Assembly: GCF_017068395.1 (NCBI RefSeq)
Contig: NZ_CP070619.1
Coordinates: 3,286,001 to 3,350,000, forward strand
Direction: 5' to 3'
DNA: 64,000 bases
Source: Rhodococcus pseudokoreensis
GTDB lineage: Bacteria; Actinomycetota; Actinomycetes; Mycobacteriales; Mycobacteriaceae
The notes beneath the pieces are model-generated. The model was not told where the DNA came from and searched no databases. It was given only the letters and a program-made list of their open reading frames with translations. A program made the translations under genes and the position numbers. Below are positions 5,394-39,538 of this stretch, piece after piece (the stretch's first letter is position 1; every line of letters begins with the position of its first letter).

Positions 5394-5435
5394 CGTTCTC
5401 CTCTACCGATGCAAGTCTGTTTCCATCGAGTGGTG

Positions 5436-5774
5436 TCAGCGGGAGACCGAGCGAAACGGCGTGTAGGAGACCTTGACACCGAAGGTATCCCGGAACTTCT
5501 CGCTCACCTCACCGAGAATGACGTTCGTCAACAGCTCAGCGGAAGAAGCGAAGTCCTCCTGGCCGGCGGCGGTCCGCTCCATATGCTTCCAGATGGCGTC
5601 CTCGTTCTCGTACTGCTCATGCTGGTAGTAGGTACCGTCGTCGCCGTGGAAGATCTCGTATCCGAGGACGTAGGGCTCCTCGGCCTCGGTGATCGGGAAG
5701 ACCTTGTCCAGGTACGCCTGGTAGCGGTCCTCCATACCGGGCCTGACGCGGTAGCTGAAGAGTGCATCGATCAT
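5436..5774 (-). CDS. Small ABM-like (dimeric alpha/beta barrel) protein
   Basis: 112 residues with the look of the antibiotic-biosynthesis-monooxygenase / EthD-like ferredoxin fold: an N-terminal strand (IDALFSYRVRPG), a helix with YQAYLDKVFP, then EIFHGDDGTYYQHEQYENED and a helix ending FASSAELLTNV. Such proteins act as small cofactor-free oxygenases, isomerases or stress proteins. No catalytic role can be fixed here. It sits between a molybdopterin oxidoreductase and a crotonase in the same leftward operon, with 35- and 42-base gaps, so it is probably part of the same pathway. Confidence 0.6.
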   Translation of the reverse strand: MIDALFSYRVRPGMEDRYQAYLDKVFPITEAEEPYVLGYEIFHGDDGTYYQHEQYENEDAIWKHMERTAAGQEDFASSAELLTNVILGEVSEKFRDTFGVKVSYTPFRSVSR

Positions 5775-5809
5775 TCTGGTACTCCTTGTCTTTGCGGTTA
5801 GGGAATCGG

Positions 5810-8065: not shown

Positions 8066-8121
8066 CCGATTACACCTCCTCGATCACGGTCTGACATGTT
8101 GGGGCCTCGCGACCGGACACG

Positions 8122-9822: not shown

Positions 9823-9883
9823 GATGCACTCCCTGCTGAACCGCCACGTACTGCGACCGCGGCGACTGTTTTGCGCGTACCTG

Positions 9884-10984
9884 TCACGGAGTCAGCTCGA
9901 GATCGAGATTCAGTGACGCGACCGTTCGACGGTGGCTGCCGGCGCTGCCTAGAAGCTCCTTATCAACCTGGGCGCGACGCCAATACAGGTGCGCGTCGTG
10001 CTCCCAGGTGAACCCGACGCCCCCGTGTGTATGGATCAGCGTCTGGGCGGATCGGTTCAGTACGTCTGCCGCGTACGCGGCGGCGGACGCCGCGTAGAGC
10101 CTGAGGCTCTCCGGCTGGGCATCGGCCGACCAGGCGGCCAACCACACGAGCGAGCGCAGCTGCTCCTCGCCGACGTAGGCTTCGACCAAAGCGTGCTTGA
10201 CCGCCTGGAAACTGCCGATCTGGCGATTGAAACTCTGCCTGGTCAACGCGTAGGCGCGGGCCAGCTCATTTGCCTGAGTCGCTGCCCCCAAGTCCTCCGC
10301 GGCCAGCAGGACCAGTGCCACGTTCTTGGCCCGGTCCCAGGCAGGAACGACTGAAGCGCCAGCCGACAGCACGTGCGCCGCTGCTCCCCTGAACTCGAAA
10401 ACTGCGAGGCCCCGCGTGGCATCGAGAGGCTTCGGGTCCACACGCCGAACCGCCGGGCTGGAGCTCGTCACCTCGACGGCGACCACAACCGGGCCGGTAT
10501 CGGTCTCGGCCAGAACAATGAGGTCCGTCGCCGCGACGCCGTCGAGCACAGGCGCCGTACGCCCGTGGACCGCGCCCGAGGGATCTAGGCGAAGCCGGTC
10601 GGCCGAATCCCGGGTGCTGTCCGCGACGGCCACGGTCCTGCCACCGTTGAGACCAGCCTCGAGCAGTGTCACCGCTTCGGGCGAGCCGAGCGCTTCCAGG
10701 AGAGTGACTGCCCGGCCGGCGAAGCTCACCAGCCGTGCGGGAGTCAGATGCTTACCCGACTGCTCTGCAACGACCACAAGGTCCAGAACCGTTCCCCCGC
10801 CGCCGCGTGACTCGTCGGCGAGCAACTCCATGACTCCGAGCGACGCCCACGGCTCACCGGTGGGGAAGGGAAGATCACTATCGTCGAGGGCCCCACGGGC
10901 GTACTCGAGCCCCGAGCGCTTGGCGAAGGCCTGCCCGGCGACCTTACCGAACTCGATCTGGTCGTCCGAAAGACTGAATTTCAT
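9884..10984 (-). CDS. Acyl-CoA dehydrogenase, short beta-like subunit
   Basis: 366 residues with an acyl-CoA dehydrogenase fold. The N-terminal and middle domains are divergent, and the C-terminal HTHGGVGFTWEHDAHLYWRR segment is typical of the FadE proteins that form alpha2beta2 enzymes in actinobacterial steroid-type pathways. Its ATG overlaps the stop of the upstream acyl-CoA dehydrogenase gene by one base (TGATG), implying translational coupling and 1:1 assembly. It would introduce a 2,3 double bond into a ring- or branched-chain acyl-CoA, passing electrons to ETF. The substrate is unknown. Confidence 0.88.
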   Translation of the reverse strand: MKFSLSDDQIEFGKVAGQAFAKRSGLEYARGALDDSDLPFPTGEPWASLGVMELLADESRGGGGTVLDLVVVAEQSGKHLTPARLVSFAGRAVTLLEALGSPEAVTLLEAGLNGGRTVAVADSTRDSADRLRLDPSGAVHGRTAPVLDGVAATDLIVLAETDTGPVVVAVEVTSSSPAVRRVDPKPLDATRGLAVFEFRGAAAHVLSAGASVVPAWDRAKNVALVLLAAEDLGAATQANELARAYALTRQSFNRQIGSFQAVKHALVEAYVGEEQLRSLVWLAAWSADAQPESLRLYAASAAAYAADVLNRSAQTLIHTHGGVGFTWEHDAHLYWRRAQVDKELLGSAGSHRRTVASLNLDLELTP

Positions 10985-12207
10985 CAGGCACCATCCCGAG
11001 ATGCGGTGGGTGAAGTGGTCAAGGCGGGAGAGGCAGTCACTCGCGGTTCGGGCGGAAGACCGAGAATCCGTTCGCCGAGAATGTTTTTCATGACCTCCGG
11101 CGTTCCTCCGGCCAGTGAAAGTCCAGGCGCGAACATCGCAACGTTCTGCCAGTGATTCGTGCCATCGGGAGCTGCGGCGAACACAGCGGTCTCCCCCTGC
11201 AGAGACAGTCCGAGACTGCCGACTCGCTTGAGTAGCGCTCCGAGCGCGAGCTTCCCGACGCTTCCCTCGGGACCAGGCTCCCCGCCCTGGGACACTCGGG
11301 AGATCAGTCGATTGCCGGTCATCCGGCAGGCCAGGGCCTCGATCCAGCAGGCCGCGTACTCCTGGAGCACGAGCTCGCGGCTGCTCTCCGAAAGTTGCGG
11401 CAGGGCCTTACGCACCTCGGAGGTCAGGGCGCCGGGCCCTGCGCCGTAAGTCGACCCGTCACCTCCCACGACGAACCGCTCGTTCATGAGCATCGTCAGA
11501 GCAACCGCCCAGCCCTGCCCAACCTCACCGAGCACGGCGTTCGCCGGAAGCTCGACGTCCTCCAGGAAGACCTCGTTGAACGCGGCGTGGCCGGTCATCT
11601 CCCGCAGAGGACGTACGGTCACGCCCGGGGCCGACATATCGACGACGAATGCGGTGAGACCCCGGTGGCGATCCTCGGGACTACCTGTCCGCGCGAGTGC
11701 CACCCCGTAGTCGGACCAGTGAGCGCCCGTGTTCCAGACCTTCTGGCCGCGCAGCACCCAACCGTCCTCCGTGGGGACGGCCTTGGTCGCCACCGCCGCG
11801 AGGTCACTACCCGCCCCGGGCTCGCTGAACAGCTGGCACCAGATCTCCTCCCCCGTGAGGATATTCGTCAAGTATCGACTCTTCTGCTCACCGGTGCCGT
11901 GGGTGATGATCGCCGGCCCGCACAGGCCCACGCCCATCCACCCGATCAGCCGGGGAGCCTGGGCGCGGTCCAGCTCCTCGTTGATGATCAGCTGCTGGAC
12001 GACAGTCCCGCCGGCGCCGCCATACTCCTTCGGCCAAGTCACCCCCACGAGTCCGCCGGAGTAGAGAACCGATTGCGCATGTTTGAGAGTGTCCACGTTG
12101 TCCGCGGACGCTCCGCGCGAGGACACCAGCGAGTGCAGGTTGTCTTCGATGAATTGGCGCACGGTGACGCGGAAGGTGCTTTCTTCAGGGCTGTCACTGA
12201 TGTCCAT
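10984..12207 (-). CDS. Acyl-CoA dehydrogenase, alpha-like subunit
   Basis: 407 residues, a full acyl-CoA dehydrogenase. WCQLFSEPGAGSDLAAVAT is the FAD/substrate segment, GQKVWNTGAHWSDYGVALAR follows, and the C-terminus has GGTPEVMKNILGERILGLPP. It pairs with the following gene through a one-base TGATG overlap, the pattern of heterotetrameric FadE pairs. The gap to the upstream SDR is 11 bases. A homologue of the same type is at 20016-21299. The start MDISDSPEE gives a normal family N-terminus. Confidence 0.9.
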   Translation of the reverse strand: MDISDSPEESTFRVTVRQFIEDNLHSLVSSRGASADNVDTLKHAQSVLYSGGLVGVTWPKEYGGAGGTVVQQLIINEELDRAQAPRLIGWMGVGLCGPAIITHGTGEQKSRYLTNILTGEEIWCQLFSEPGAGSDLAAVATKAVPTEDGWVLRGQKVWNTGAHWSDYGVALARTGSPEDRHRGLTAFVVDMSAPGVTVRPLREMTGHAAFNEVFLEDVELPANAVLGEVGQGWAVALTMLMNERFVVGGDGSTYGAGPGALTSEVRKALPQLSESSRELVLQEYAACWIEALACRMTGNRLISRVSQGGEPGPEGSVGKLALGALLKRVGSLGLSLQGETAVFAAAPDGTNHWQNVAMFAPGLSLAGGTPEVMKNILGERILGLPPEPRVTASPALTTSPTASRDGA

Positions 12208-12218
12208 TGGTCCCCCGC

Positions 12219-12995
12219 TCAGCGGTAGCGAAGGCGCGCGGCTGCATCGAGCCGAACGACCTCACCATTCATGTAGGTGTTCTCGAGCAGGTGCAGGGTC
12301 AGCGCCGCAAACTCGTCGGCCCGCCCGAGTCGGGCAGGAAAGACGACGTCTCGCGCCAACTTCTCCTTGAAGGCCACCGGGTCGGCGACCTTGTTGTAGA
12401 TCGGGGTGTCGATGAGACCGGGGGCGATGGCGTTGACCCGGATGCCGGCGGGTGCGAGGTCACGCGCAGCAGGAAGGGTCATCCCCACGATCCCGGCTTT
12501 GGAGGCAGAGTAGGCCACCTGGCCGATCTGGCCGTCGAACGCCGCGACCGACGCGGTATTGACGATTGCGCCGCGCTCGTCGTTCTCGTCCGGCTCGTTG
12601 GTCGACATGACAGTTGCGGCAATGCGCATGCAGTTGAATGTGCCGATCAGGTTGGTGGTGATGATGCGTGTGTAGCGCTCGAGTGAGTACGCGCTGTCGT
12701 AAGTGCCGTCGCGGCCGATGATCCGGGCGGACCCACCGAACCCGGCGCAGTTGACGAGCGCCCGCAGTTCTCCGACCTCGCGGGCCCGCTCGACCGCAGC
12801 GATGACCTGGTCCTCGCTTGTGACGTCCGTGCTCACGAAATGCGAGCCGGACTCCTGTGCGACCGTGTCGCCCTTGTCCTTCTGGACATCGGCAATCACG
12901 ACCTGGACCCCGCGGCTCGCCAGGGAGCGCACAACACTTTCTCCCAGGCCGGATGCACCGCCAGTGACCACCGCTGAAGCACCGGTGAACTTCAT
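12219..12995 (-). CDS. SDR-family 3-hydroxyacyl-CoA dehydrogenase-like oxidoreductase
   Basis: 258 residues, classical short-chain dehydrogenase. [10 protein letters not shown] is the NAD(P)-binding glycine motif near residue 12, and [10 protein letters not shown] holds the catalytic Tyr and Lys. The sequence resembles type-2 3-hydroxyacyl-CoA dehydrogenases ([20 protein letters not shown] end). The start was placed at ATG 12995 because AAGGAG lies five bases upstream; the alternative GTG at 13001 overlaps that ribosome site. It sits in the leftward operon and probably oxidises a hydroxyl made by the crotonase. Confidence 0.88.
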
Positions 12996-13154
12996 GAACA
13001 CTCCTTAGCAAGATGATGATGCCCGAGCCGTCTTCCGGTCTCGTGGCTAGTGGGCGCGCCCTAGGATGCCTTCGAGGGTTTTCTGCGCGCCCGCGAATTG
13101 GTTGGTTGTCGGAAAGGGCTCAGCCCAGGTGTTCCCGGGCGGAATTCGACGGGT

Positions 13155-13571
13155 CTATTTCCCCGTTTGCCTGTCCCGCTCCTCGATCTCGTCCGGCAGT
13201 AGCCGAACCGAACTGACCCCTGCATGCTCGATCAGGTCGCCGCGGAAGTGGAAGATCCACCGCAGCCGAACCGTGTCGTCCGAAGACATCGCGTTCTCGT
13301 ACTTCGAGTATCCCGGCACCGAGATCCGCCCATACGCTGCGAGACGGCGGTCGTTGCCCTGCAGCCATCGCTCCGGCTCGCCGAAGTCGATGCCCGCAGG
13401 CCGCGAGTCGCCGAACGCACGCAGGCCCGCATGCCCCTCGGTGTGTCGGCCGCTGCCGTCGTCGATCACGCCGTCGTCGGTGAACAGCGATGCAAGACCC
13501 TCACCATCGCGATTCGCCAGACACCGGAAATACGTCCGTGCGGTCTCCCGCTGGCTCTCCCGAACCTCCAC
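13155..13571 (-). CDS. SnoaL/NTF2-like protein
   Basis: 138 residues with the cone-shaped alpha+beta NTF2/SnoaL pattern: helices ending in YFRCLANRDGEGLASLFTDDGVIDDGSG, then strands such as VRLRWIFHFRGDLIEHAG. Members are ketosteroid-isomerase-like enzymes, polyketide cyclases or hydratases; several actinobacterial examples hydrate steroid side-chain enoyl-CoAs. No reaction can be assigned. It is the second gene of the leftward operon, 31 bases after the first acyl-CoA dehydrogenase. A second SnoaL-like gene lies at 18400-18834 under a copy of the same operator. Confidence 0.75.
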   Translation of the reverse strand: MEVRESQRETARTYFRCLANRDGEGLASLFTDDGVIDDGSGRHTEGHAGLRAFGDSRPAGIDFGEPERWLQGNDRRLAAYGRISVPGYSKYENAMSSDDTVRLRWIFHFRGDLIEHAGVSSVRLLPDEIEERDRQTGK

Positions 13572-13602
13572 CTTTCAACTCCTTCGTCTCAGACTTGCTC
13601 GA

Positions 13603-14772
13603 TCAGGCGACCCGGCTTGCCTGGTGTGGTTGATCCACTGGCGCGGCGAGCTCACTCGGAAGACCGATGAGGCTCAAGAATCTCTCCCGGTGCCGCGCTG
13701 GAGATCCCAGGAAGAACTCACTCGACTTTGCCCGCTTGAAGTAGAGATGCGCGTCGTGTTCCCAGGTGAAGCCAACACCGCCGTGGACCTGGATAGTCAT
13801 TGCAGCGGTGGCGACGAACGCGTCCGAGCACAACGCTTTGGCCATGCTTGCGTGTGCGGGGAACTCGTCGGCACCAGTAGCCGCATCCCACGCCGCACGA
13901 TAAGCGGCCGACCGCGCCGATTCGACCTCCAGGAGCGCATCCGCACACATGTGCTTGATCGCCTGGAACGACCCGATCGCACGCCCGAATTGGTGCCGCA
14001 CCTTGGCGTACTCGACGCTCATGTCCAGACACTGCTGCGCGCCACCGACCTGCTCCGCTGCCAATGCGACGGCCGCCAGGTCGAGGACCCGCTGCAGCAC
14101 CGGCTCGGCCGCTCCCTCCTCACCCACGAGGACGGCCGGGGTGTCACTGAGCATCACGCCGGCGAGGCGACGGGTTGAGTCCAGCGCCTCCTGAGGTTTG
14201 CGGACCAGCCCCGGCGCTGCACCATCACAGGCGAAGAGTGACACCCCCCGCCGGGTACGCGCCGCTACGAGAATCAGGTCCGCGGCCATGCCGTCGACCA
14301 CGAAGCACTTTTCACCATGAAGCCGCCATTCGCCGCCACTCTCCACAGCCGACGCACGCACATCACCCGGTACCCATGAGCCCGTGGGCTCGGCCAGCGC
14401 GAGCGTCACCACCGTGCTGCCGTCGGCAATCGACGGCAGATGCGTGCGCTGCGCAGTCTCGTCACCGGATTCCATCAGCGCGGTGGCACCGAGCGCGACA
14501 GTCGCGAAGAAGGGGGCGGACAGCAACGACCGACCCATCTCTTCGGACGCGACCAGCAGTTCGACCCACCCACATCCGGCGCCCCCGAATTCCTCGGGGA
14601 TATGCAACCCATGGAGACCGAGCTCCCCGGCCATCTGCGCCCAGACACCCGAGTCGTAACCCGAGGGATCACCGATCAGGCGCCGAGCCTCGGCGGGTCC
14701 AGACTTCGCGGAGAGAAAGCGCCGAAGCGCTGCCCGGAAGTCCTCTTGCTCACTACTGAATTCGAAGATCAC
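13603..14772 (-). CDS. Acyl-CoA dehydrogenase, beta-like subunit, first gene of the leftward operon
   Basis: 389 residues from GTG 14772 (VIFEFSSEQEDFRAALRRF), chosen because GGAGG lies seven bases upstream and the family N-terminus begins there; the longer frame to 14901 would run through the operator and promoter. The C-terminus has QVHGGVGFTWEHDAHLYFKR, matching the beta-like gene at 9884-10984. An alpha-like partner could be the protein at 20016-21299 or 10984-12207. Its start overlaps the stop of a seven-codon leader frame (GTGA). This gene opens a nine-gene transcription unit that ends near 4450. Confidence 0.88.
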   Translation of the reverse strand: MIFEFSSEQEDFRAALRRFLSAKSGPAEARRLIGDPSGYDSGVWAQMAGELGLHGLHIPEEFGGAGCGWVELLVASEEMGRSLLSAPFFATVALGATALMESGDETAQRTHLPSIADGSTVVTLALAEPTGSWVPGDVRASAVESGGEWRLHGEKCFVVDGMAADLILVAARTRRGVSLFACDGAAPGLVRKPQEALDSTRRLAGVMLSDTPAVLVGEEGAAEPVLQRVLDLAAVALAAEQVGGAQQCLDMSVEYAKVRHQFGRAIGSFQAIKHMCADALLEVESARSAAYRAAWDAATGADEFPAHASMAKALCSDAFVATAAMTIQVHGGVGFTWEHDAHLYFKRAKSSEFFLGSPARHRERFLSLIGLPSELAAPVDQPHQASRVA

Positions 14773-14792
14773 AGCACCGCCTCCACTCTCAT
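14769..14792 (-). CDS. Seven-codon leader ORF (MRVEAVL), probably leaderless
   Basis: ATG 14792 begins six bases after the TACGCT -10 box (14799-14804), where transcription is expected to start. The frame runs seven codons, and its TGA overlaps the GTG of the acyl-CoA dehydrogenase gene. It contains the GGAGG used by that gene. Geometry relative to the -10 box is the same as for the leaderless GTG at 20016. Whether it is translated is untested. Confidence 0.4.
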   Translation of the reverse strand: MRVEAVL

Positions 14793-14798
14793 GCCGCG

Positions 14799-14827
14799 AG
14801 CGTAACCCAATTCGACATACATGTCGA
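14799..14827 (-). promoter_or_regulatory. Operator A1 and promoter of the leftward operon
   Basis: The perfect inverted repeat TCGACATNNATGTCGA occupies 14812-14827. Reading leftward, seven bases separate it from TACGCT (14799-14804), a TANNNT -10 box. The operator therefore covers the -35 region, as expected for TetR repression. The same arrangement occurs at three other places in the window. Confidence 0.8.
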
Positions 14828-14902
14828 GTGACGGCCGGCGACCCACATTCCCGCGCGTTCACATTCCCTGCGGGCAAGCCCCCGCTCAGCCGATTCGGCA
14901 AG

Positions 14903-14932
14903 TCGACAATGATGTCGATAAGCGGTTATGCT
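14903..14932 (+). promoter_or_regulatory. Operator A2 and promoter of molybdopterin oxidoreductase 2
   Basis: TCGACAATGATGTCGA (14903-14918) differs from the consensus half-sites by one base. Eight bases later comes TATGCT (14927-14932), and GTG 14940 follows after seven bases, where transcription should begin. This makes a leaderless message likely. It lies 75 bases from operator A1 in the divergent spacer. Confidence 0.75.
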
Positions 14933-14939
14933 GCGGAAT

Positions 14940-17168
14940 GTGAGCGACAGAGCGGAACACGACACCAGCTCGGACGTCCTTCGAGAGCCACAGCACCAGG
15001 CTTCAACAGGACGCACTCGAAGCCGGGCGGAGCCACAGGCGACCACGGTTCCCACGTTCTGCAGAATCTGCCCTGGCATGTGCGGCCTACTCGTCACGAT
15101 CGAGGACGGGGCCGCCGTGGGCTCGATGGGCGACCGGGACCATGCCGCGACCGAGGGGTACTGCTGCCGCAAAGGGCGCAACATCCATAAGCTGCACACC
15201 AAACCGGACCGCTTCCTCCAGTCGCAGCGCGGCAACCGTCGAGGAGGCTTCGTCCCGATCGAGACCGCGACTGCGATCGATGAAATCGGTGAGCGCCTGA
15301 GCGAGATTCGCGAAAAGCACGGACCCGACTCCATCGGCCTCTTCCTGGGTACTCAGGCATACCAGGCCACCCCGACTATCCCCGTGGTCAAGGCATGGCT
15401 GCGCGCCATCGGCACGCGAAAGTACTTTCGGACGGTCTCGATAGACCAATCCGCCAAGGTCATTGCGACGGGTCGTCTAGGAGCTTGGGCGGCGGGAAAC
15501 CAACGCTTCGACGAGTCGGACGTGTGGCTGTTCGCCGGCACCAACCCGATCGTGTCGATGCAGGGCGGCCCCGCCAGCTTCCCGATTCACCGCGGACGAC
15601 GGGCCCTCCGCGAAGCCCGCGACCGCGGCATGTACATCATCGTCGCAGATCCCCGATTGACCGAGACCGCTCGCGAGGCAGACCTGCACCTGCCGCTACG
15701 TCCCGGCACCGACTCCCTGCTCGCCGCGGCGATCTTGCACGTCATCCTGGAGGAGAGGCTGCACGACGGGGAGTTCTGCCGCAACCACGTCACCGGCCTG
15801 GCGAACCTCGAGCGAGCACTCGCGCACGTCACTCCGGGCTCTGTCGCAGCAGACACCGGGATCGCCGCCGATGACATCGTGCTGGCAGCCCGCCGCTTCG
15901 CGACGGCCACCCGTGGCATGACCACGACCGGCACGGGCCCCGACATGAGTGTGTGGTCCAACCTCAACGAACACCTTTGGCAGCTACTCAACGTGATCTG
16001 CGGCCGTTTCCCCCGCGCAGGAGAGTTCCATGCCGAATACGGCGTACTCACCTCGAGTCAGTCCCACCGTGCCGAGGTCGCGCCTCCCGGTCGGCCGTGG
16101 GAATCGGGCTACCGCAGCCGACTGGGCTACGGCCTGCTCGCGGGCGACCTCCCCACCGCATCACTGCCTCGCGAAATCACCGAACCCGGGCCCGACCGGA
16201 TCCGAGCGCTGGTCGTGGTGGGCGGCAACCCCCTCGCGGCCCTTCCAGGACCGGCCTCGGTCCGAACGGCATTCCAGCAGCTCGACCTCCTCGTCGCGCT
16301 GGAGCCATTCCCGACCGAAACCGCGGAGCTGGCGGACTACGTGCTCGCCCCACGAATGATCCTCGAGCGGCCGGACGTCACCAAGATGTTCGACCAGTGG
16401 TACGACAAGCCGTTCGGGCAATACACACCCGCAGTGCTCGAGGGCCCAGAGGAGACGGTGGAGGACTGGCAGTACCTCGCGAGAATCGCGGGTGCCATGG
16501 GGCTTCCGTTGACCATCGGGTCGTTCGAGGTCAGTAACAGCCAGGGCGCCGTCACTACCGAGCAGCTTCTGGACCATCTGTCCCGCAAGGGGCAGGCGGA
16601 CCTGCAGGAGTTGAGGCGGCGGCCGCACGGGCACGTGTTCGACAACGCCGCACGCCCGATAATCGCGCCGGCTGGCGACTCTGCGGGACGCTTCGACTTG
16701 CTCCCGGACGACGTCGCCGGCGAGCTCCGCGCTGCGCTCCGCCGGGAGCGGATCACACTTTCGACCGCGGATCGCCGTCCGGACGAGGCCTTGCTCACCG
16801 TCCGGCGGACGCAGGGAGTCATGAACAGCCTCGGCCGGGACGTCCTCACCATGACGCGCACGCCCTACAACCCCTGTCACGTCAATCCGACGCAGCTGGA
16901 GGCGATCGAAGCAACGGCAGGTGACCTACTCCTGCTCGAGACACAGCACGGTCGAGTGATCGCTGTGGCCGAAGCGGACGACACGGTTCAGCCCGGCACG
17001 GTGTCATTAGCGCACTGCTTCCGTGGGCCGCGGGACGACGCCGATCCGCGGCACAGCGGCGCGAACCCCGGGGCATTGATTTCATTGCACGAGGTCACGG
17101 AGACGATCAACGCCATGCCCCGGCTCAGCGGAGTCCCGGTCCGCCTTGCGAAGTATCGCGTCGACTGA
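14940..17168 (+). CDS. Molybdopterin (bis-PGD) oxidoreductase 2
   Basis: 742 residues from GTG 14940. ATG 14928 was rejected because it overlaps the -10 box. After a ~35-residue hydrophilic N-terminal extension without a Tat motif comes a 4Fe-4S site (C41, C44, C48 and C75 or C76; FCRICPGMC). Molybdopterin domains follow (FAGTNPIVSMQGGPASF, DPRLTETAREADLHLPLRPG, VVVGGNPLAALPGP) and a C-terminal dinucleotide-binding barrel (MTRTPYNPCHVNPTQ). The metal-ligand position reads VSIDQSAK (D169). It resembles molybdopterin oxidoreductase 1 in size and domain order but is clearly not a recent copy. It is divergently transcribed from the nine-gene operon and probably uses the same FprB-like partner. 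The substrate is unknown. Confidence 0.9.
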   Translation: MSDRAEHDTSSDVLREPQHQASTGRTRSRAEPQATTVPTFCRICPGMCGLLVTIEDGAAVGSMGDRDHAATEGYCCRKGRNIHKLHTKPDRFLQSQRGNRRGGFVPIETATAIDEIGERLSEIREKHGPDSIGLFLGTQAYQATPTIPVVKAWLRAIGTRKYFRTVSIDQSAKVIATGRLGAWAAGNQRFDESDVWLFAGTNPIVSMQGGPASFPIHRGRRALREARDRGMYIIVADPRLTETAREADLHLPLRPGTDSLLAAAILHVILEERLHDGEFCRNHVTGLANLERALAHVTPGSVAADTGIAADDIVLAARRFATATRGMTTTGTGPDMSVWSNLNEHLWQLLNVICGRFPRAGEFHAEYGVLTSSQSHRAEVAPPGRPWESGYRSRLGYGLLAGDLPTASLPREITEPGPDRIRALVVVGGNPLAALPGPASVRTAFQQLDLLVALEPFPTETAELADYVLAPRMILERPDVTKMFDQWYDKPFGQYTPAVLEGPEETVEDWQYLARIAGAMGLPLTIGSFEVSNSQGAVTTEQLLDHLSRKGQADLQELRRRPHGHVFDNAARPIIAPAGDSAGRFDLLPDDVAGELRAALRRERITLSTADRRPDEALLTVRRTQGVMNSLGRDVLTMTRTPYNPCHVNPTQLEAIEATAGDLLLLETQHGRVIAVAEADDTVQPGTVSLAHCFRGPRDDADPRHSGANPGALISLHEVTETINAMPRLSGVPVRLAKYRVD

Positions 17169-17274
17169 TCGGGACGCATCCGGGCCGACGGAAAGCGGGT
17201 GTTCAAGGCACCCATTGGCGATGTCGAAATGCGCGCTATTGATGAGCTAGTCAAATCCAGGAGGAAGCAAAAGG

Positions 17275-18300
17275 ATGACACCTTCCCACGACCAAGCCCG
17301 AGGCACCATGCGCGCTTGGGTCATGCAGGAACCGGGCGAACCGGTCGAGGCGATGCGGATCGACGAGATACCCATTCCTGAACCCGGGCCCGGGCAAGTA
17401 CTGATCAGGGTGGCGGCTATCGGAATCAGCTATGGCGACCTGCTCTTGAGCCGCGGGGAGTACCAGGACGGCGCCGTGTTTCCCTTCACGCCGGGACAGG
17501 AGGTGGTTGGCGAAGTCGTGGCGGCTCATCGCAATACGACCACCCCGGTCGGCACGCGGGTCATCGCCTTGCGGAGCGGCGGGCTCGCAGAGTTCTGCGT
17601 AGCCGACGAAGCCGGGGTCTTCCCCGCCGGAGAAACCCTGACCGACGCCGATGCCGCGGGATTCCCCATTGCCTTCCACACCGCCTGGTTCGCCCTGCAT
17701 CGCCGCGCCATGGTCCAACCCGGAGAGACGGTTGTCGTGCATGCCGCTGCAGGCGGAATAGGCTCGGCCTGTGTCCAACTCGGCGTCGCGGCAGGGGCGC
17801 GGGTAATCGCGGTCGCAGGCGGTGAGACCAAGGTTGCGCTGTGCCGCAAGCTCGGAGCGCATGTCGTGGTCGACCGTCTGGTCGAGGACTTCGGCGAAAT
17901 CGTCCGACTGGAGACGGACGGGCGCGGCGCCGATGTCATCATCGACCCGGTGAATGGTGACGTCTTCGACCAGTCGCGGCGAGTGATCGCTTCGGAGGGG
18001 CGGCTCGTCGTCGCCGGCTTCGTGGCCAACCGCATCGCCGAGATGCGGACCAACCATGTGCTGCTCAAGAACTACTCGGTTACCGGCGTGAATCTGTCGT
18101 ACTACTACGACAACAGCAGCGCAATCGAGCTTGTCCGGGCGGCACACGCCGAGCTCCTCGAACTCCATCGGCGGGGCGCCATCGTGTCGCTGGTTCAGCG
18201 GGAAATTCCTTTCGAGGAAGCCGCCCAAGCGATTTCCGACATCCGGACGACCTCCACGTGGGGACGTACGATTGTGCGGCCCCCCACCCCGCGCCCGTAA
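17275..18300 (+). CDS. Zinc-independent MDR-family quinone/enoyl reductase-like protein
   Basis: 341 residues, medium-chain dehydrogenase/reductase of the NADPH:quinone oxidoreductase type. The N-terminal GroES-like domain has PEPGPGQVLIRVAAIGISYG and PFTPGQEVVGEVV; the NADPH motif is HAAAGGIGSACVQLG, followed by RGADVIIDPVNGD. Zinc ligands of alcohol dehydrogenases are absent. Family members reduce quinones or the double bond of enoyl-CoA and enones. It lies 106 bases after molybdopterin oxidoreductase 2 on the same strand with a good AGGAGGAAG site, so it is probably co-transcribed. A lone half-site resembling operator A is present at about 17218. Confidence 0.85.
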   Translation: MTPSHDQARGTMRAWVMQEPGEPVEAMRIDEIPIPEPGPGQVLIRVAAIGISYGDLLLSRGEYQDGAVFPFTPGQEVVGEVVAAHRNTTTPVGTRVIALRSGGLAEFCVADEAGVFPAGETLTDADAAGFPIAFHTAWFALHRRAMVQPGETVVVHAAAGGIGSACVQLGVAAGARVIAVAGGETKVALCRKLGAHVVVDRLVEDFGEIVRLETDGRGADVIIDPVNGDVFDQSRRVIASEGRLVVAGFVANRIAEMRTNHVLLKNYSVTGVNLSYYYDNSSAIELVRAAHAELLELHRRGAIVSLVQREIPFEEAAQAISDIRTTSTWGRTIVRPPTPRP

Positions 18301-18311
18301 TCACCGGACAC

Positions 18312-18341
18312 ACGTCGGCGGCGGGGACCCGCCGCCGACGT
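18312..18341. terminator. Bidirectional hairpin terminator
   Basis: A perfect 14-bp GC-rich stem (18312-18325 with 18328-18341) and a two-base loop, between the convergent genes 17275-18300 and 18400-18834. There is no strong T-tract. Confidence 0.7.
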
Positions 18342-18399
18342 CACCGGGTAGTTCAGTGCATGGGCGAGGCAACGTCATCTCCGCCGCGGACGTCTGGTG

Positions 18400-18834
18400 T
18401 TACGGCGTCCCGGATCGTGCCCGGTCGTTGAACAAGATGTCGGTGGCCTTGATGTCCAGGTACTCGCGGAGTTCGACGATCTTGCCGTCCCGACACACGA
18501 ACACAAAGTGGTAGACGTTTCGGTAGACGTCGCCGTTCTTCAGTGCGGCTGTGCTCTCGGCCTCGACGGCGAGGCGATCGCCGTCAATCGTGAACGCGAC
18601 CGCCTTGATGTCGATCTTCCCGTCGGCCGAGAGCGCGAAGAATCTTTGCAACCTCCGAGCAAAGTCGCTTCCAGGCAGTGTGCCCGGCAGGTCGACCGCA
18701 CCGATCCAGTAGCTGCTGTCCTCGCTCATGCACGCGTCGAGCCCGTTGACATCGCCCTGGGTCATCGCCTGCAGGAACCGCTCGACGATCTCCTTGTTGG
18801 CCAGCTCTTGCGCGTCGTACTCACTTCTCGGCAT
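18400..18834 (-). CDS. SnoaL/NTF2-like protein, regulon A
   Basis: 144 residues from ATG 18834 (MPRSEYDAQELANKEIVERF), behind GAGGAG. The longer frame from 18930 starts inside an operator palindrome and was rejected. The fold is SnoaL-like: an N-terminal helix, CMSEDSSYWIGAVDLPGT, then strands NVYHFVFVCRDGKIVELREY with the typical final EYLD segment. It has its own copy of operator A about 90 bases upstream, so it belongs to the same regulon as the molybdoenzyme operons. It could be an isomerase, hydratase or binding protein. Confidence 0.8.
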   Translation of the reverse strand: MPRSEYDAQELANKEIVERFLQAMTQGDVNGLDACMSEDSSYWIGAVDLPGTLPGSDFARRLQRFFALSADGKIDIKAVAFTIDGDRLAVEAESTAALKNGDVYRNVYHFVFVCRDGKIVELREYLDIKATDILFNDRARSGTP

Positions 18835-18909
18835 GGTTCCGCTCTCCTCGGCAGTCGGGACGCCCGCAATCCCGATGGTCAGATCAGTCACATCGAGCCA
18901 ATCGAACCC

Positions 18910-18939
18910 ACCGTATGCGATAGTCGACATTCATGTCGA
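18910..18939 (-). promoter_or_regulatory. Operator A3 and promoter of the SnoaL-like gene
   Basis: A perfect inverted repeat TCGACATNNATGTCGA lies at 18924-18939. Leftward after eight bases comes TACGGT (18910-18915), a TANNNT -10 box. Transcription would start near 18903, giving a leader of about 70 bases before ATG 18834. Confidence 0.75.
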
Positions 18940-18984
18940 GTTCAGTCGGCGACGATCACCACGCGCCCACCGCACACTTCAGCG

Positions 18985-19725
18985 TTACTCGTCCCGAAGC
19001 CCCGTCGCCCGGACCCAGATATCGGTAATGGCGGCAACAGGATCATCCGGACGCCCCGCTACGTCTCCGCCGACAAACCACCAGTAACACGAGTTGGATG
19101 TCAGCGACACGAGCACCGAGGCCGTCGTGGTCGCATCGATCGAGGTGTCGGCAAGGCCGCGACGCTGCCACCGAGCGATAGTGGCAGCCACGCGCTCGAC
19201 ATTTGCCCGCCGGCTCTCCAAGCGCTGCCGATGCACCTCGGGATCCATCGTGGCGACCTGCTCGATCAATCCGTACATCCGAGCATGGGCCCGATACACC
19301 TCCACGTACCGGCGGTTCGAGTTCGTCAACGCTCCTATGGCGCCAACGTTCGCGTCCTCCGCACGAGTCGAGACTGCGCTGTCGATTTCGACACGCACCT
19401 GCGAGGAGAGCTCGCGGAACACATCACTCTTCGTCGAGAAGTACGTGTAGAAGGTCCCGCGGGACACACCGAGGCGGGTAACGATGTCCTCGATGCTGAC
19501 GTCCACGTAGCCACGCTCCTCGAAGAGAGCCCGAGCAGCCGCGAGGATCGCAGATCTTGTGTTCTTGCCGCGATGAGTGCCGCGCTCCTCGTGCGCATTT
19601 CGACGACTGGCTGCAGTGCCGGTCGGAACCCATCCTCCGCGGGTACGGGGCGGCGTCGCCTCGCCGCCGTCCGGTTCCCCGGGGCTCGGCCGGCGAGCCG
19701 ACTGGTCTCGAGGACTGGCTTTCAT
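18985..19725 (-). CDS. TetR-family regulator, candidate repressor of regulon A
   Basis: 246 residues from ATG 19725 (MKASPRDQ), chosen for the GGAGGG site eight bases upstream. An unusually long, Arg/Pro-rich N-terminal stretch of about 50 residues precedes the TetR helix-turn-helix (SIEDIVTRLGVSRGTFYTYF). The C-terminal ligand domain shows no recognisable subfamily. It lies among the genes that carry the TCGACATNNATGTCGA palindrome and is the only TetR gene in that block, so it is the obvious candidate to bind it (inference). Its own start has only a weak match to the palindrome (19732-19747), so strong autoregulation is not evident. Confidence 0.88.
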   Translation of the reverse strand: MKASPRDQSARRPSPGEPDGGEATPPRTRGGWVPTGTAASRRNAHEERGTHRGKNTRSAILAAARALFEERGYVDVSIEDIVTRLGVSRGTFYTYFSTKSDVFRELSSQVRVEIDSAVSTRAEDANVGAIGALTNSNRRYVEVYRAHARMYGLIEQVATMDPEVHRQRLESRRANVERVAATIARWQRRGLADTSIDATTTASVLVSLTSNSCYWWFVGGDVAGRPDDPVAAITDIWVRATGLRDE

Positions 19726-19980
19726 CGGTGACCCTCCATACATGTCAGCTGCGTTTTCAACGTGCACCGTCTTTGCAGACTAGACGCCCTGGAGACCTCT
19801 CACACGTTCGGCGCCGACCGCAGTCCACACGTCCGCCAAGTGTCGACAAAGACGCCACGAACAGAATCGTCAGGCGACGACGACGCGTCGTACCTGCTCG
19901 GCCCGACGGTGCCATGCGACCGCCTCGACCCCGTCAATTACAACTCCCGCCCCGCGTCCACTGCCGCACGAAGAAGGTAA

Positions 19981-20009
19981 TCGACATCCATGTCGATTTC
20001 GGTTACGCT
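19981..20009 (+). promoter_or_regulatory. Operator A4 and leaderless promoter of acyl-CoA dehydrogenase
   Basis: A perfect inverted repeat TCGACATNNATGTCGA at 19981-19996 is followed after seven bases by TACGCT (20004-20009), and six bases later by the GTG start at 20016. The -35 region is inside the palindrome. No ribosome site lies between promoter and start, so the message is probably leaderless. Confidence 0.8.
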
Positions 20010-20015
20010 TGCCCC

Positions 20016-21299
20016 GTGAACGGAGAACGCAAAGCTGGTACGGGCGCAGACGAACAACAGGGCTCCGATGCGGGCGCACTGAGGGCGGAAGTCCGCAGCT
20101 GGCTTGCGCAGAATTGGGACCCGGACATGGCGTTGATCGACTGGCGACGACTGCTGATCGACGAGGGCTGGGGCGTTCCGTCGTATCCGCGTGAATGGCT
20201 CGGTCGCGGTCTACCCCGGTGGGCCGACGCGGTCGTCGCCGAGGAGATCGAGGCGGCTGGGGCCGTGGGCAACCCTCTCGGGGTCGGAGCCGGTCTTGCC
20301 GCCCCCACCATCCTCGCCCACGGCTCGGACGATCTGCGCACACGATTCCTCCGCCCCATCCTCACTGGCGAGCAGACGTGGTGTCAGCTGTTCAGTGAGC
20401 CAGGGGCGGGATCCGATCTCGCCGGCCTGGTCACCGGGGCTCACCTGGACGGCGACGAATGGGTGGTCTCCGGGCAGAAGGTGTGGAATACGAGCGCTGA
20501 TCACGCGGACTTCGGGCTACTGCTGGCGCGCACTGATACCTCGGTGCCAAAGCACCAAGGCCTCACCTACTTCGTACTCCCGATGCGGCAGCCCGGTGTC
20601 GAGGTACGTCCCCTGCGTCAGATGAACGGACACAGCTCGTTCAACGAGGTCTTCCTCTCCGAGGCGAGAATCCCGGTCGACCATGTTGTCGGCGAGGTGG
20701 GCGGGGGCTGGTCGGTTGCATCCACGACGCTGCAGTACGAGCGTCGATTCGGCGCCATGCGCCAGCACGACTTCGCCGGCCGCTCCGGGAAGGCCATTGA
20801 TGAGGCGAGGCGCGAAGCCAAGCGGCACGCCGAGACCTACAAGTGGTACCCGCAGCGAGCTGGCCGTGTCGACCTCGTGTTGGAACTCGCACGCAGCTTG
20901 GGCCAGGACCAGGACCCGATCCTCCGACAGGAGATTGCCAAACTGCTGTCCCTGCACCGGGCAAGCGCCTGGACCGCCGAGCGGGCGCGGATTGCGCTGA
21001 AGCGGGGGGCGCGACCGAGTGCAGAAGGATCGCTGGGCAAGCTGGCCAACAGCCAGATCGCTAGGCAGGCGGCCTCGGTGCACTCTCTCATCGCGGGCAC
21101 CCACTCGATGTTGACCGGTCCCGAAAGCCTCATGGGGGGTGTGATCGCGGAGGTGCTGGTGTCGACGCCCGCGCAGTCGATCGCAGGCGGAACCGACCAG
21201 ATCCAACGCAACATCGTGGGCGAGAAGATGCTGGGTCTTCCCAAAGAGCCGTCCGTCGAGACGGGACGCGCATTCCGCGACGTCCGCAGAAGCGGCTAG
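20016..21299 (+). CDS. Acyl-CoA dehydrogenase, alpha-like subunit
   Basis: 427 residues from GTG 20016 (MNGERKAGTGADE). The reading frame is open further left to 19557, but that part overlaps the operator and the TetR spacer. WCQLFSEPGAGSDLAGLVTG and GQKVWNTSADHADFGLLLAR match the alpha-like protein at 10984-12207; the C-terminus has GGTDQIQRNIVGEKMLGLPK. It has its own operator A4, so it is co-regulated with the nine-gene operon although separate from it. A natural partner is the beta-like subunit at 13603-14772 (inference). A strong hairpin follows nine bases after the stop. Confidence 0.88.
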   Translation: MNGERKAGTGADEQQGSDAGALRAEVRSWLAQNWDPDMALIDWRRLLIDEGWGVPSYPREWLGRGLPRWADAVVAEEIEAAGAVGNPLGVGAGLAAPTILAHGSDDLRTRFLRPILTGEQTWCQLFSEPGAGSDLAGLVTGAHLDGDEWVVSGQKVWNTSADHADFGLLLARTDTSVPKHQGLTYFVLPMRQPGVEVRPLRQMNGHSSFNEVFLSEARIPVDHVVGEVGGGWSVASTTLQYERRFGAMRQHDFAGRSGKAIDEARREAKRHAETYKWYPQRAGRVDLVLELARSLGQDQDPILRQEIAKLLSLHRASAWTAERARIALKRGARPSAEGSLGKLANSQIARQAASVHSLIAGTHSMLTGPESLMGGVIAEVLVSTPAQSIAGGTDQIQRNIVGEKMLGLPKEPSVETGRAFRDVRRSG

Positions 21300-21307
21300 A
21301 AGCGATT

Positions 21308-21359
21308 GCAACCGAGGGTTCGGGCAGCTGGTGCCCGGACCCTCGGTCTGTCTGTGTGC
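21308..21359 (+). terminator. Hairpin terminator, left copy of a repeat flanking whiB
   Basis: Stem CCGAGGGT / ACCCTCGG with an inner CGGGCA / TGCCCG stem, followed by TCTGTCTGTG. It shares 45 of 52 bases with 21727-21778. One stem pair differs as T-A here and C-G there, a compensatory change that supports a conserved RNA structure. Confidence 0.7.
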
Positions 21360-21403
21360 GGGGAGCACCCAACATGTATCAGCGAACAGGAGAGGAGAAG
21401 TAG

Positions 21404-21454
21404 ATGGCGGCCACTGAGCACACACTTCGCGGCGGCCAGGACGTCACGCGGTGA
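21404..21454 (+). CDS. Small leader ORF (16 residues) coupled to whiB
   Basis: ATG 21404 opens a 16-residue frame (MAATEHTLRGGQDVTR) behind AGGAGAGGAG. Its TGA overlaps the GTG start of the WhiB gene (GTGA). The ribosome site belongs to this frame, and none precedes the whiB GTG, so whiB translation may depend on it. The peptide resembles nothing known. Confidence 0.45.
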   Translation: MAATEHTLRGGQDVTR

Positions 21455-21750
21455 CAGACCTCGAATGGCAGCAGTTCGCACGCTGCAAGAACATAGGAGC
21501 CGACACCTTCTACCCGCCCGACAACGAGGAAATGGGCACCCGGCTACGCCGGGAGCGTGCCGCGAAACAAATCTGCGGCCCCTGCGTCGTAAGGATGCAA
21601 TGCCGAATGCACGCCCTGTTGGCCGCCGAGCGATACGGCGTATGGGGAGGGCTCACCGAATCGGAGCGTCGCCGCGTCAAGCGGCCCTACCGGTTCGAAC
21701 CGGATCTGGCAGCCACGACCGTGGGAGCAACCGAGGGCTCGGGCAGGTAA
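21451..21750 (+). CDS. WhiB-family iron-sulfur regulator
   Basis: 99 residues. The four WhiB cysteines are C12, C42, C45 and C51 (CGPCVVRMQC), followed by GVWGG (63-67) and a basic tail ESERRRVKRPYRF. WhiB proteins hold a 4Fe-4S cluster and act with the primary sigma factor or bind DNA, often as redox or nitric-oxide sensors. It starts at GTG overlapping a 16-residue ORF and ends inside the second flanking hairpin, which encodes its last six residues. No operator of either regulon lies in front of it. The target genes are unknown; proximity to Fe-S molybdoenzymes is suggestive only. Confidence 0.92.
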   Translation: MTDLEWQQFARCKNIGADTFYPPDNEEMGTRLRRERAAKQICGPCVVRMQCRMHALLAAERYGVWGGLTESERRRVKRPYRFEPDLAATTVGATEGSGR

Positions 21751-21778
21751 TTCCCGGGCCCTCGGTCTGTCTCTGTGC
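21727..21778 (+). terminator. Hairpin terminator, right copy, overlapping the whiB 3' end
   Basis: Stem CCGAGGGC / GCCCTCGG with an inner CGGG / CCCG stem, then TCTGTCTCTGTG. The left arm encodes the final codons and stop of whiB. It matches the left copy at 21308-21359 at 45 of 52 positions. Confidence 0.7.
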
Positions 21779-22022
21779 AATTCGCGACCTCGTGTGCAAA
21801 CTGCTGGATCCGGCCTATTCCGTCGAGGTTTGGGGATCCCAATAAGGGAACTACTGCTCCGCATCTTGCAGGGGTCTCCGTAGATCGACGCCGATTGGGA
21901 CGCCCGCCCGCCGATTCTGCGGCACTTGGCATTCCCGCTCGGCCATCGATCAAGTGCCACTCGTTGTCGGCGAGGCTGACGAGAGATTCATTTCGGGCGA
22001 TACTCAGCCGCTTGAGCTCCGG

Positions 22023-23504
22023 CTACTGACCTCCCGATGCGGCCGCCGGGAGATAGGTGGCGATTTCCGGGAAGAAGATCAGGAGAAGCGTCACCACGAG
22101 GGCCATCGGCATGAAGTACCAGGTCGAGTTGAACACGTCCGTCAGTCGGATGTTTACGCCCTGATTTACCTCAGGCTCCTTGGTGATCGAGTAGATAATG
22201 AAAGACAGAATTCCGACAGGCGGTGTCACGACCGCCAGTTCGCCCATGAAGACAGCGAAAACCCCATACCAGAGGAGATCGATGTCGAGTGTCACCAGCG
22301 TCGGCATCAGCACCGGAATCGTCAGCACCATCATCGGTAGCGGTTCCATGAAAGTTCCCAGCAGGACGTAGACCACCGTCATTGCGAGGAGGAAAGTCAC
22401 CCTGTTGAGATCCATGGACTCGACCCACTCAGCGAATCCAGTGCTGATGCCGGTCAACGAGTACATACGAGCAAGCGCCTCGACTCCGACCAGCATGAGG
22501 AAGATTGCACCAACGCTGCTGACGGCGATCGAAGAAGCCGATCCGACGGCCTTCCAGGGTGCATCGCGGCGCTTCAACCATAGAGCGACGATGACTGCGA
22601 GCAGCGCCGAAACGGCTCCCGCCTCGGTCGCGGTGAACGTACCGCTGAAAATTCCGAGCGCAATGGTCGCGATGATGAGCGGGACAGGCCAGACCCTCGC
22701 GAGGCTCACCAGACGTTCTCTCAGGCTGATCACTTCGGTGTTCTCGTCCTTCGGGGCCCACTTCCGGGCGAAAACCACGATCATGATCGTGAAAAGAACG
22801 GCGACCATGACTCCTGGAATGACTCCCGCGAGGAGTTGAGGACCGACGGGCACTTCCGCGATACCGGCAAAGATGACCAGCATGATGCTTGGGGGAATGA
22901 GTTGACCTGGAAGGCCGGCCACGATGACCGAGCCGATCGCGAGACGCTTATCGTAACCGGCTTTGAGCATTTCCGGAATTCCGATCCGCGCCAAGGCATA
23001 GGTAGTTCCCGCCGAGGAGCCGCTTACTGCCGCCAGACCGGCGCCGGCGACATTGGTCCCCACTGCGAGTCCACCGGGAACCCATCCGAGCCAACGCCGC
23101 GCCGCAATGTAGAGACTTTCGGTCAACCCGGCCTTCCACATGAGCAGTCCCATGAGGATGAACATAGGAATGGCGCTCAGCGTCCAGCTCGCCGCTTGGG
23201 TGTAAGGCAGCGTCGTGAGCGTTCCTTCAACGAGCGGAGTTCCTCGCAGCGCGTACATGCCGAGTAGTGAGGGAGCAATCATCGCAAACGCAACCGGCAC
23301 TCGAAGGAAAATGAGCGCCAGCATCAGCAGGCTCGCGAAGCCCCCCACTGCCGCGGGCTCGAGCGGTAGGAACAGCGCCACAACGCAGGAGGCGATGACT
23401 GCGCCGCAGATTGCAAACAGAATCCAGGACCCGCGGGTGTTGCTGTCCGTCGGAGACTCTCGAACGTCCGCTACATCCACGTCACTGAGCTGTTCAGTCG
23501 CCAT
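22023..23504 (-). CDS. TRAP transporter large permease (DctM-like)
   Basis: 493 residues with about twelve hydrophobic segments, the size and pattern of a DctM membrane subunit (AVSGSSAGTTYALARIGIPE and GLPGQLIPPSIMLVIFAG are family signatures). It imports a small organic anion with sodium or protons, together with the small permease and the periplasmic-type binding lipoprotein encoded just upstream (DctP-Q-M order). The gap to dctQ is three bases. An N-terminal cytoplasmic stretch of about 30 residues precedes the first membrane segment. Confidence 0.92.
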   Translation of the reverse strand: MATEQLSDVDVADVRESPTDSNTRGSWILFAICGAVIASCVVALFLPLEPAAVGGFASLLMLALIFLRVPVAFAMIAPSLLGMYALRGTPLVEGTLTTLPYTQAASWTLSAIPMFILMGLLMWKAGLTESLYIAARRWLGWVPGGLAVGTNVAGAGLAAVSGSSAGTTYALARIGIPEMLKAGYDKRLAIGSVIVAGLPGQLIPPSIMLVIFAGIAEVPVGPQLLAGVIPGVMVAVLFTIMIVVFARKWAPKDENTEVISLRERLVSLARVWPVPLIIATIALGIFSGTFTATEAGAVSALLAVIVALWLKRRDAPWKAVGSASSIAVSSVGAIFLMLVGVEALARMYSLTGISTGFAEWVESMDLNRVTFLLAMTVVYVLLGTFMEPLPMMVLTIPVLMPTLVTLDIDLLWYGVFAVFMGELAVVTPPVGILSFIIYSITKEPEVNQGVNIRLTDVFNSTWYFMPMALVVTLLLIFFPEIATYLPAAASGGQ

Positions 23505-23507
23505 GTG

Positions 23508-24068
23508 TCAATTAGTCCTATCGAAGTTGTGGTTGACATCGAGCTCGCTGAGGACGGCATCGGGACTGTCCGTTGCCGGCGCAATGGACTCGAGCCTGAC
23601 CAGCGCAGAGATCGACGCCCATGCGAACTGGACGGTCATGATCGAGAAGGCCAGGGTCGGAAGAAAATACGTAGGCCATGACGGAACCATCGTCACGCCT
23701 GCCGGGCGGCGGATTTCCATCGCCTTCATCGCCTCATGCCATCCGTAGCGCGCGAATCCGAAAGCGACGACCGCACAGAGGGCGAAAGTGGCCGCTGCGA
23801 CAAAACGCTTAGCTTGATGGGGCAACTTCTCGAAAAGTAGGTCGGCCGCAATGTGCTGCCCGCGGTGTTGGGCTGCAACGAAGCCGAGGAACACCAAGAT
23901 CGGCATGTACCAGTACTGGACGATCTCGAGAGTGTTCGGGAGGGAGTCGTTGAAGAAGGTGCGGAGCAACGCATTCGCCGAAATATGGAGCATCATCGTA
24001 AAAGTCACGGCTACTGCCGGTACTTCGATCAGCAGCTGGATGAGCCTCGACGTGGAAATTCGAGTCAT
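23508..24068 (-). CDS. TRAP transporter small permease (DctQ-like)
   Basis: 186 residues from ATG 24068 (MTRISTSRLIQLL), preceded by GAAGGA; ATG 24104 is an alternative, and the frame open to 24173 overlaps dctP. There are four hydrophobic helices with the DctQ pattern (NALLRTFFNDSLPNTLEIVQ, PILVFLGFVAAQHRGQHIAA). It bridges the binding protein and the large permease. Confidence 0.88.
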   Translation of the reverse strand: MTRISTSRLIQLLIEVPAVAVTFTMMLHISANALLRTFFNDSLPNTLEIVQYWYMPILVFLGFVAAQHRGQHIAADLLFEKLPHQAKRFVAAATFALCAVVAFGFARYGWHEAMKAMEIRRPAGVTMVPSWPTYFLPTLAFSIMTVQFAWASISALVRLESIAPATDSPDAVLSELDVNHNFDRTN

Positions 24069-24129
24069 GAGGATCCTTCGGGAGGGTTCGAGGGAGCGGT
24101 CCATGGTGGTGGATCGCTCCCCCGCGGGG

Positions 24130-39363: not shown

Positions 39364-39414
39364 CTCGGCTCCCTCAACTTTCGGCCTGCCAGCACCCTGG
39401 GACCGGAACTGTGT

Positions 39415-39430
39415 AACTGAACGTTCGATA
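39415..39430 (-). promoter_or_regulatory. Operator B5, upstream of the TetR gene
   Basis: AACTGAACGTTCGATA, 13 of 16 matches, with the right half perfect. It probably mediates autoregulation. Confidence 0.6.
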
Positions 39431-39538
39431 AAAACATACATGCTAGTGATCGAACCTTCGCTCTGTCGACCAAGCGGGCGCAATGGATCCGCGCCCAGCT
39501 GAACACGCAGATACCCGCCGATCGACCTCCAGCGGTTC

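Follow-up and report, generated by a model that had tools for sequence, protein, structure and literature searches.

The stretch analyzed here (the window) comprises 64,000 nt of the genome of Rhodococcus pseudokoreensis (contig NZ_CP070619.1, positions 3,286,001 to 3,350,000); all coordinates given are window positions, and G and L numbers are labels of compared genomes and loci, respectively. It contains a gene for a TetR-family regulator (18985-19725, minus strand) together with 13 structural genes that are arranged behind four copies of one palindrome. That one local TetR acts through one operator at four promoters of these 13 genes is well supported by the sequence comparisons described below. 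The palindromes were first pointed out in an earlier note on this DNA, which placed the four 16-bp cores at 14812-14827, 14903-14918, 18924-18939, and 19981-19996, regarded three of them as perfect, and described a TANNNT box 7-8 bases behind each one; all of this was found exactly so.

Operator 1 (14810-14829, ACTCGACATGTATGTCGAAT on the minus strand; core without mismatch) is directed at a nine-gene leftward run, with a -35 hexamer TCGACA at 14827-14822 and a -10 element TACGCT at 14799-14804 (minus strand) separated by a 17 bp spacer. A short leader containing GGAGG precedes the first gene of this run, which starts with GTG at around 14772. Operator 2 (14901-14920, plus strand, AGTCGACAATGATGTCGATA) has a single mismatch at the seventh base of its core and lies upstream of the gene for molybdopterin oxidoreductase 2; its -35 hexamer TCGACA (14903-14908) is followed after 18 bp by TATGCT (14927-14932) and by an in-frame GTG at 14940. 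Operator 3 (18922-18941, ACTCGACATGAATGTCGACT on the minus strand; no core mismatch) precedes a SnoaL-like gene with TACGGT at 18915-18910 (18 bp spacer) and a leader longer than that of the first gene of the leftward run. Operator 4 (19979-19998, plus strand, AATCGACATCCATGTCGATT; no core mismatch) is situated upstream of a lone acyl-CoA dehydrogenase (ACAD) gene, with the -35 hexamer at 19981-19986, TACGCT at 20004-20009 (17 bp spacer), and a GTG at 20016.

Thus, the TANNNT box follows the palindrome toward the named gene at all four sites, at distances of 7, 8, 8, and 7 bases (sites 1-4). The upstream half-site TCGACA, which matches the textbook -35 hexamer in five of six positions, doubles as -35 element with spacers of 17, 18, 18, and 17 bases, and the operator therefore covers the -35 region. 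As judged by sequence alone, a trait of the TetR family, a palindromic operator overlapping the target promoters, is present. Since the in-frame GTG codons of molybdopterin oxidoreductase 2 and the lone ACAD start 7-8 bases after the -10 element, both transcripts are probably leaderless. A terminator scan was uninformative (two found versus 4.3 expected). The palindrome can be extended to A-N-TCGACAT-NN-ATGTCGA-N-T, with the outer A/T present in seven of the eight window half-sites. The flanking A at position -2, which was not used for finding sites, occurred in 28 of 40 non-window, 7 of 8 window, and 3 of 20 off-cluster half-sites; because of this enrichment in cluster half-sites, the operator appears to be about 20-22 bp long rather than 16, with (T)ANTCGACATNNATGTCGANT(A) as the predicted consensus.

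The leftward run starts with an ACAD gene (13603-14772, minus strand; nearest solved chain Tcur3481), and its remainder (4623-13571, minus strand) encodes a SnoaL-like protein, an SDR, two ACADs, a ferredoxin-NADP reductase-like protein, molybdopterin oxidoreductase 1, an ABM-domain protein, and an enoyl-CoA hydratase; the nine genes would form one transcript. Between the SnoaL-like and the SDR gene of this run, a gap of about 150 bp (13001-13155) was noted, where an internal promoter is possible. Rightward, the formate dehydrogenase/acetylene hydratase-like molybdopterin oxidoreductase 2 (14940-17168, plus strand) is followed by an MDR-type zinc-binding-dehydrogenase-like gene (17275-18300, plus strand), with which it is probably cotranscribed. 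The second SnoaL-like gene (18400-18834, minus strand), assigned by domain scan like the MDR gene, and the lone ACAD gene (20016-21299, plus strand; nearest solved chain Tcur3483) complete the set. Where the MDR and SnoaL-like genes converge, a GC-rich perfect hairpin GTCGGCGGCGGGGACCCGCCGCCGAC at 18314-18339 is a possible two-way terminator.

Judged by Pfam, with NCBIfam added for the first ten genes, the 13 targets, namely four ACADs, an enoyl-CoA hydratase, an SDR, an MDR, two SnoaL-like proteins, two molybdopterin oxidoreductases, a ferredoxin-NADP reductase-like protein, and an ABM-domain protein, fit CoA-thioester degradation, and we infer that they belong to one pathway. Tcur3481 and Tcur3483, the nearest chains of the first operon ACAD and the lone ACAD, are chains of the same PDB entries, 6wy8 and 6wy9, which we take to be a steroid-type heteromeric ACAD with the two proteins as its two subunit types. 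Because the nearest chains share these entries, the two window ACADs may be subunits of one enzyme produced from separate promoters. Homologs of molybdopterin oxidoreductase 2 were found in 26 of 301 family genomes (own genome included), with 37-46% identity besides the gene itself; among the listed places that were compared, none shared a contig with a TetR ortholog except on the window's chromosome.

The TetR protein comprises 246 amino acids, with an N-terminal arm of the form TRGG..G..A.RR, a TetR_N helix-turn-helix (PF00440, E 4.4e-17, residues 60-106), and a weak EthR_C domain (29.2 bits, just over the Pfam cut-off of 27). The AlphaFold model predicts the all-helical TetR fold with a mean predicted local distance difference test score (pLDDT) of 86.3; it is confident from around residue 50 on, and the first 50 residues gave block means of 47-58. 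In all eight aligned TetRs, the arm residues T28, R29, G30, G31, G36, A39, R41, and R42 are invariant. An arm that is disordered, yet conserved, and positioned ahead of the recognition domain suggests that DNA is contacted beyond the core, in the flanks that show the A/T preference. The predicted fold matched EthR first, followed by a mixed group of FrrA (a flavonoid regulator) and the two acyl-CoA-binding proteins FasR and FadR.

The four sites were linked to this regulator via its relatives. TetRs with 45-53% amino acid sequence identity were identified in G272, G252, G235, G057, and G338, clearly above the paralog background, in which identity was at most 40%. Two further relatives, in G812 and G1087, were 39-40% identical, which overlaps with the identity of paralogs, but they have a higher score and the N-terminal arm in common; their assignment as orthologs is less sure. 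Overall, the seven relatives are 38-53% identical and derive from six genera. In all seven genomes, a site with 0-1 mismatch was present within about 10 kb of the TetR gene, and the 20-kb stretches around the seven genes contained 24 sites with at most two mismatches (shuffle means of 0.06-0.15 per stretch). Within 1.5 kb of the TetR gene, a 0-1 mismatch site was found at seven of eight loci (window included; exception G057), and none with 0-2 mismatches at the 25 paralog TetR loci (89 kb). Exact sites in the seven relatives' genomes were located within 20 kb of TetR in five of nine cases, and in eight of 12 when the own genome was included (P ~5e-16 for random placement). As the same palindrome accompanies its relatives in other bacteria, the four window sites are very probably bound by the resident TetR rather than by any other TetR. 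A homolog on a Rhodococcus ruber plasmid (L057, NZ_CP145320.1; 39% identity) was rejected as a relative; it lacks the TRGG arm, and its 18.6-kb stretch had no 0-2 mismatch site. Seven core matches with three mismatches occur around it (shuffle mean 1.2), perhaps representing a diverged operator. A homolog search of contigs with the TetR protein yielded 16 loci, 14 titled spirochaetes and two Gracilibacillus, none of which was used.

In the whole host genome (9,866,560 bases), the exact 16-base core has three matches, all inside the module. The earlier note had named a motif search of the complete genome as a check, with random scatter as the adverse outcome; the composite of a loosened core and the -10 element, TCGACANNNNTGTCGA-N6-9-TANNNT, turned out not to be scattered, as its four genome-wide matches all lie inside the module (backwards control: 0). 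The 20-bp form (A-N-core-N-T, at most one mismatch) gave six matches, the four sites and two within open reading frames (ORFs) that, by our reading of the translation, are presumably WhiB-like; six further one-mismatch cores in the genome were all within ORFs. When perfect palindromes (half-site at least 7) were counted in the intergenic gaps of the window between about 3.8 and 47.9 kb, the operator word was found three times and no other word recurred at separate places. Across 81 genomes (own included), the composite occurred four times in G000 and once each in G252 and G272, all with a close TetR ortholog, plus once in G015; 78 of the 81 were taken as having no known ortholog, not each of them appearing by name among the matches listed.

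For cross-validation, a 22-base matrix was built from 20 non-window cluster sites, which were picked manually and by no fixed rule out of 31 distinct ones. Left out were three L048 sites (L048 being a near-copy of L047) and eight sites judged weak or intragenic, L047 9376; L049 13458; L054 15407 and 16338; L055 13211 and 17985; and L056 6711 and 11091; L073 9766 was retained despite lying in a called ORF. A sequence logo took in the four window sites, whereas the scoring matrix excluded them. With this matrix, the four sites ranked 1-4 in the 64 kb with 32.8, 31.3, 30.2, and 28.1 bits, and fifth place reached 13.8 bits. The matrix sites had been found by their likeness to the window core, and the core part of the score is thus partly circular.

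The explanation that we consider highly probable as a whole is that the local TetR represses the four promoters as a homodimer via the 20-22 bp palindrome. The homodimer would bind at each promoter, with the conserved, disordered N-terminal arm probably gripping the A/T-rich flanks. As TCGACA, the upstream half-site, serves as the -35 hexamer, the bound repressor would shut out RNA polymerase. A pathway intermediate that is hydrophobic or a CoA thioester, perhaps an acyl-CoA, would enter the EthR-like pocket and free the repressor from DNA, and four transcripts would be induced together: the nine-gene operon, molybdopterin oxidoreductase 2 with the MDR gene, the SnoaL-like gene, and the lone ACAD gene. 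Binding, repression, inducer class, and arm function are all inferred here from sequence and predicted structure.

Several observations weigh against this explanation, in addition to the hand selection and partial circularity of the matrix. The predicted fold does not single out acyl-CoA as ligand, because the flavonoid regulator FrrA comes after EthR but ahead of FasR among the matches. When 12900-22100 was scanned for a generic sigma-70 consensus, site 2 alone was recognized (one found versus 0.7 expected from shuffles); what supports the promoter reading is therefore the geometry common to the sites rather than the strength of their consensus match. At the start of the resident TetR gene, the best operator score in 19700-19990 was 1.7 bits, apart from matches overlapping site 4. 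The earlier note had assigned a 14-gene pathway to the TetR; its single local regulator over four sites is supported, whereas the gene count has to be reduced to 13, as the TetR start has no recognizable operator.

The missing operator at the TetR start would fit a scenario in which a different regulator, encoded elsewhere or by the second TetR gene of the window (38713-39687, with a TetR_C_24 domain), bound the four palindromes and the resident TetR controlled other genes. This is improbable, since the palindrome occurs with the resident protein's relatives in every one of their seven genomes and, with 0-2 mismatches, at none of the 25 paralog loci, and a site lies close upstream of the TetR gene itself in five of the seven relatives (two of these being near-copies with two mismatches).

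Marginally more improbable still is that the TetR activates its targets, or modulates them with a second factor, instead of repressing. The TANNNT box at 7 or 8 bases was present at 4/4 window sites versus 7/31 other cluster sites (P ~3e-6) and 0/10 off-cluster sites; from the seven relatives, the four exact off-cluster sites were read and the scattered one-mismatch ones left out. Because 24 of the 31 non-window cluster sites have no such box, the -35 overlap is not general and promoter geometry differs between clusters, so that the position of the site relative to the promoter may vary. At the four window sites and at the lone-ACAD ortholog of G235, however, the palindrome covers the -35 element, where a dimer would block polymerase, which argues for repression.

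TCGA-rich words resembling the core are frequent in this genome. Cores with at most two mismatches occur 168 times per strand versus 14 in the backwards control; the two-mismatch cores were viewed among the matches listed, a part of the total, so that weaker operators may exist elsewhere in the genome. In the relatives' genomes, many one-mismatch sites are scattered. Of the 12 exact sites (own genome included), four lie outside the TetR clusters, all in ORFs; G272 has two of them, and G252 and G235 have one apiece. In a count of all hexamer palindromes at six ortholog loci, TCGACA-N4-TGTCGA ranked 66th of 36,864, swamped by TCG/CGA codon-phase words. That the four palindromes are themselves chance or codon-derived words is nevertheless exceedingly improbable, given their intergenic position with a -10 element at fixed spacing, a composite unique in the genome, the gap of 14 bits in a matrix trained without the window, and their absence from the 25 paralog loci.

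Among known systems, EthR from Mycobacterium tuberculosis has the closest solved fold to the repressor proposed here (target-normalised template-modelling (TM) score 0.83-0.86, 24-27% identity) and is the best profile match among PDB sequences, in agreement with the EthR_C domain. The gene for EthR adjoins ethA, and EthR covers a long operator with several dimers. In contrast, the window TetR gene has an ACAD and a SnoaL-like gene as neighbors and no ethA (Baeyer-Villiger monooxygenase), and its operators are single 20-22 bp palindromes. KstR and KstR2 are TetR repressors of steroid catabolism in mycolic-acid actinobacteria that bind a short palindrome (KstR, TNNAACNNGTTNNA; KstR2, ANCAAGNNCTTGNT) at several promoters. 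The predicted window system would work in a similar way, its TetR repressor being encoded locally and acting on an acyl-CoA pathway through a short palindrome that several promoters share, and some relatives' clusters carry Mce, Ltp-like thiolase, and ChsH2-like genes. It differs in the operator, ANTCGACATNNATGTCGANT being unlike both motifs when compared by eye, and in a regulon that includes molybdopterin oxidoreductases. The acyl-CoA-sensing TetRs FadR and FasR, with acyl-CoA ligands in their entry titles, were lower-ranked and weaker fold matches than EthR, in a group that also includes the flavonoid regulator FrrA.

The clusters of the relatives also bear on the substrate. In G235, an ortholog of the lone ACAD (62%) has its own operator with the same 17-bp spacer, a similar -10 element, and a start codon 7 bases on (our count), and a relative of the first operon ACAD (53%) has its own site, too. 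In two genera, the lone ACAD and the first operon ACAD have promoters of their own that carry this operator, and we predict that both proteins together form one enzyme. In G252 and G235, an enzyme 51% like the window enoyl-CoA hydratase is encoded directly after a site, and other relatives' clusters contain Ltp-like thiolases, ChsH2-like OB-fold proteins, CoA transferases, and MaoC-like hydratases. An Mce-type gene run in G057 has a perfect site immediately ahead of an MlaE gene, and the gap of about 58 bp that holds this site follows an ORF on the same strand (L050 10541-19042; L074 2507-2564); five of six scanned genes have MlaE or MlaD domains, and the TetR relative is encoded at the far end of the run. 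From this gene content (Ltp-like, ChsH2-like, Mce-type), the substrate of the pathway may be steroid- or terpenoid-like.

By type, the system is nothing unusual, a bacterial repressor regulon. Judged from the genomes compared, the novelty appears to lie in the pairing of this operator with this regulator, in the conservation of the pair across genera, and in the set of genes under its proposed control. The pair can be read from sequence, would tie 13 genes in four transcripts to one signal, and provides a search key for related clusters. Its inducer would name the substrate of the cluster, which combines steroid-type ACADs with two molybdopterin oxidoreductases. More broadly, and with the chances in our view evenly balanced, the TRGG-armed EthR-like TetRs could be a distinct family of actinobacterial regulators that recognizes an operator of its own, TANTCGACATNNATGTCGANTA. 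The family would have moved between genera with changing sets of steroid-/terpenoid-like acyl-CoA genes and Mce uptake genes, accompanied in the window by two molybdopterin oxidoreductases. If so, KstR and KstR2 would be joined by another regulatory code, one that flags unrecognized catabolic clusters.

Outside the regulon, the window encodes an AMP-dependent ligase (31536-33116) that is 54-59% identical to genes in the TetR clusters of G272, G252, and G338, and a thiolase (36484-37656) that is 64% identical to genes in those of G272 and G252. The second TetR gene adjoins a set of P450, ferredoxin reductase, and 2Fe-2S ferredoxin genes, where no high-scoring operator of the present type was found; it is possible that the ligase and thiolase were rewired to this second TetR. 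Genes for a TRAP transporter (22023-25401) adjoin the regulon and show no high-scoring operator; DctM and DctP domains were assigned, and the small gene between them would fit DctQ.

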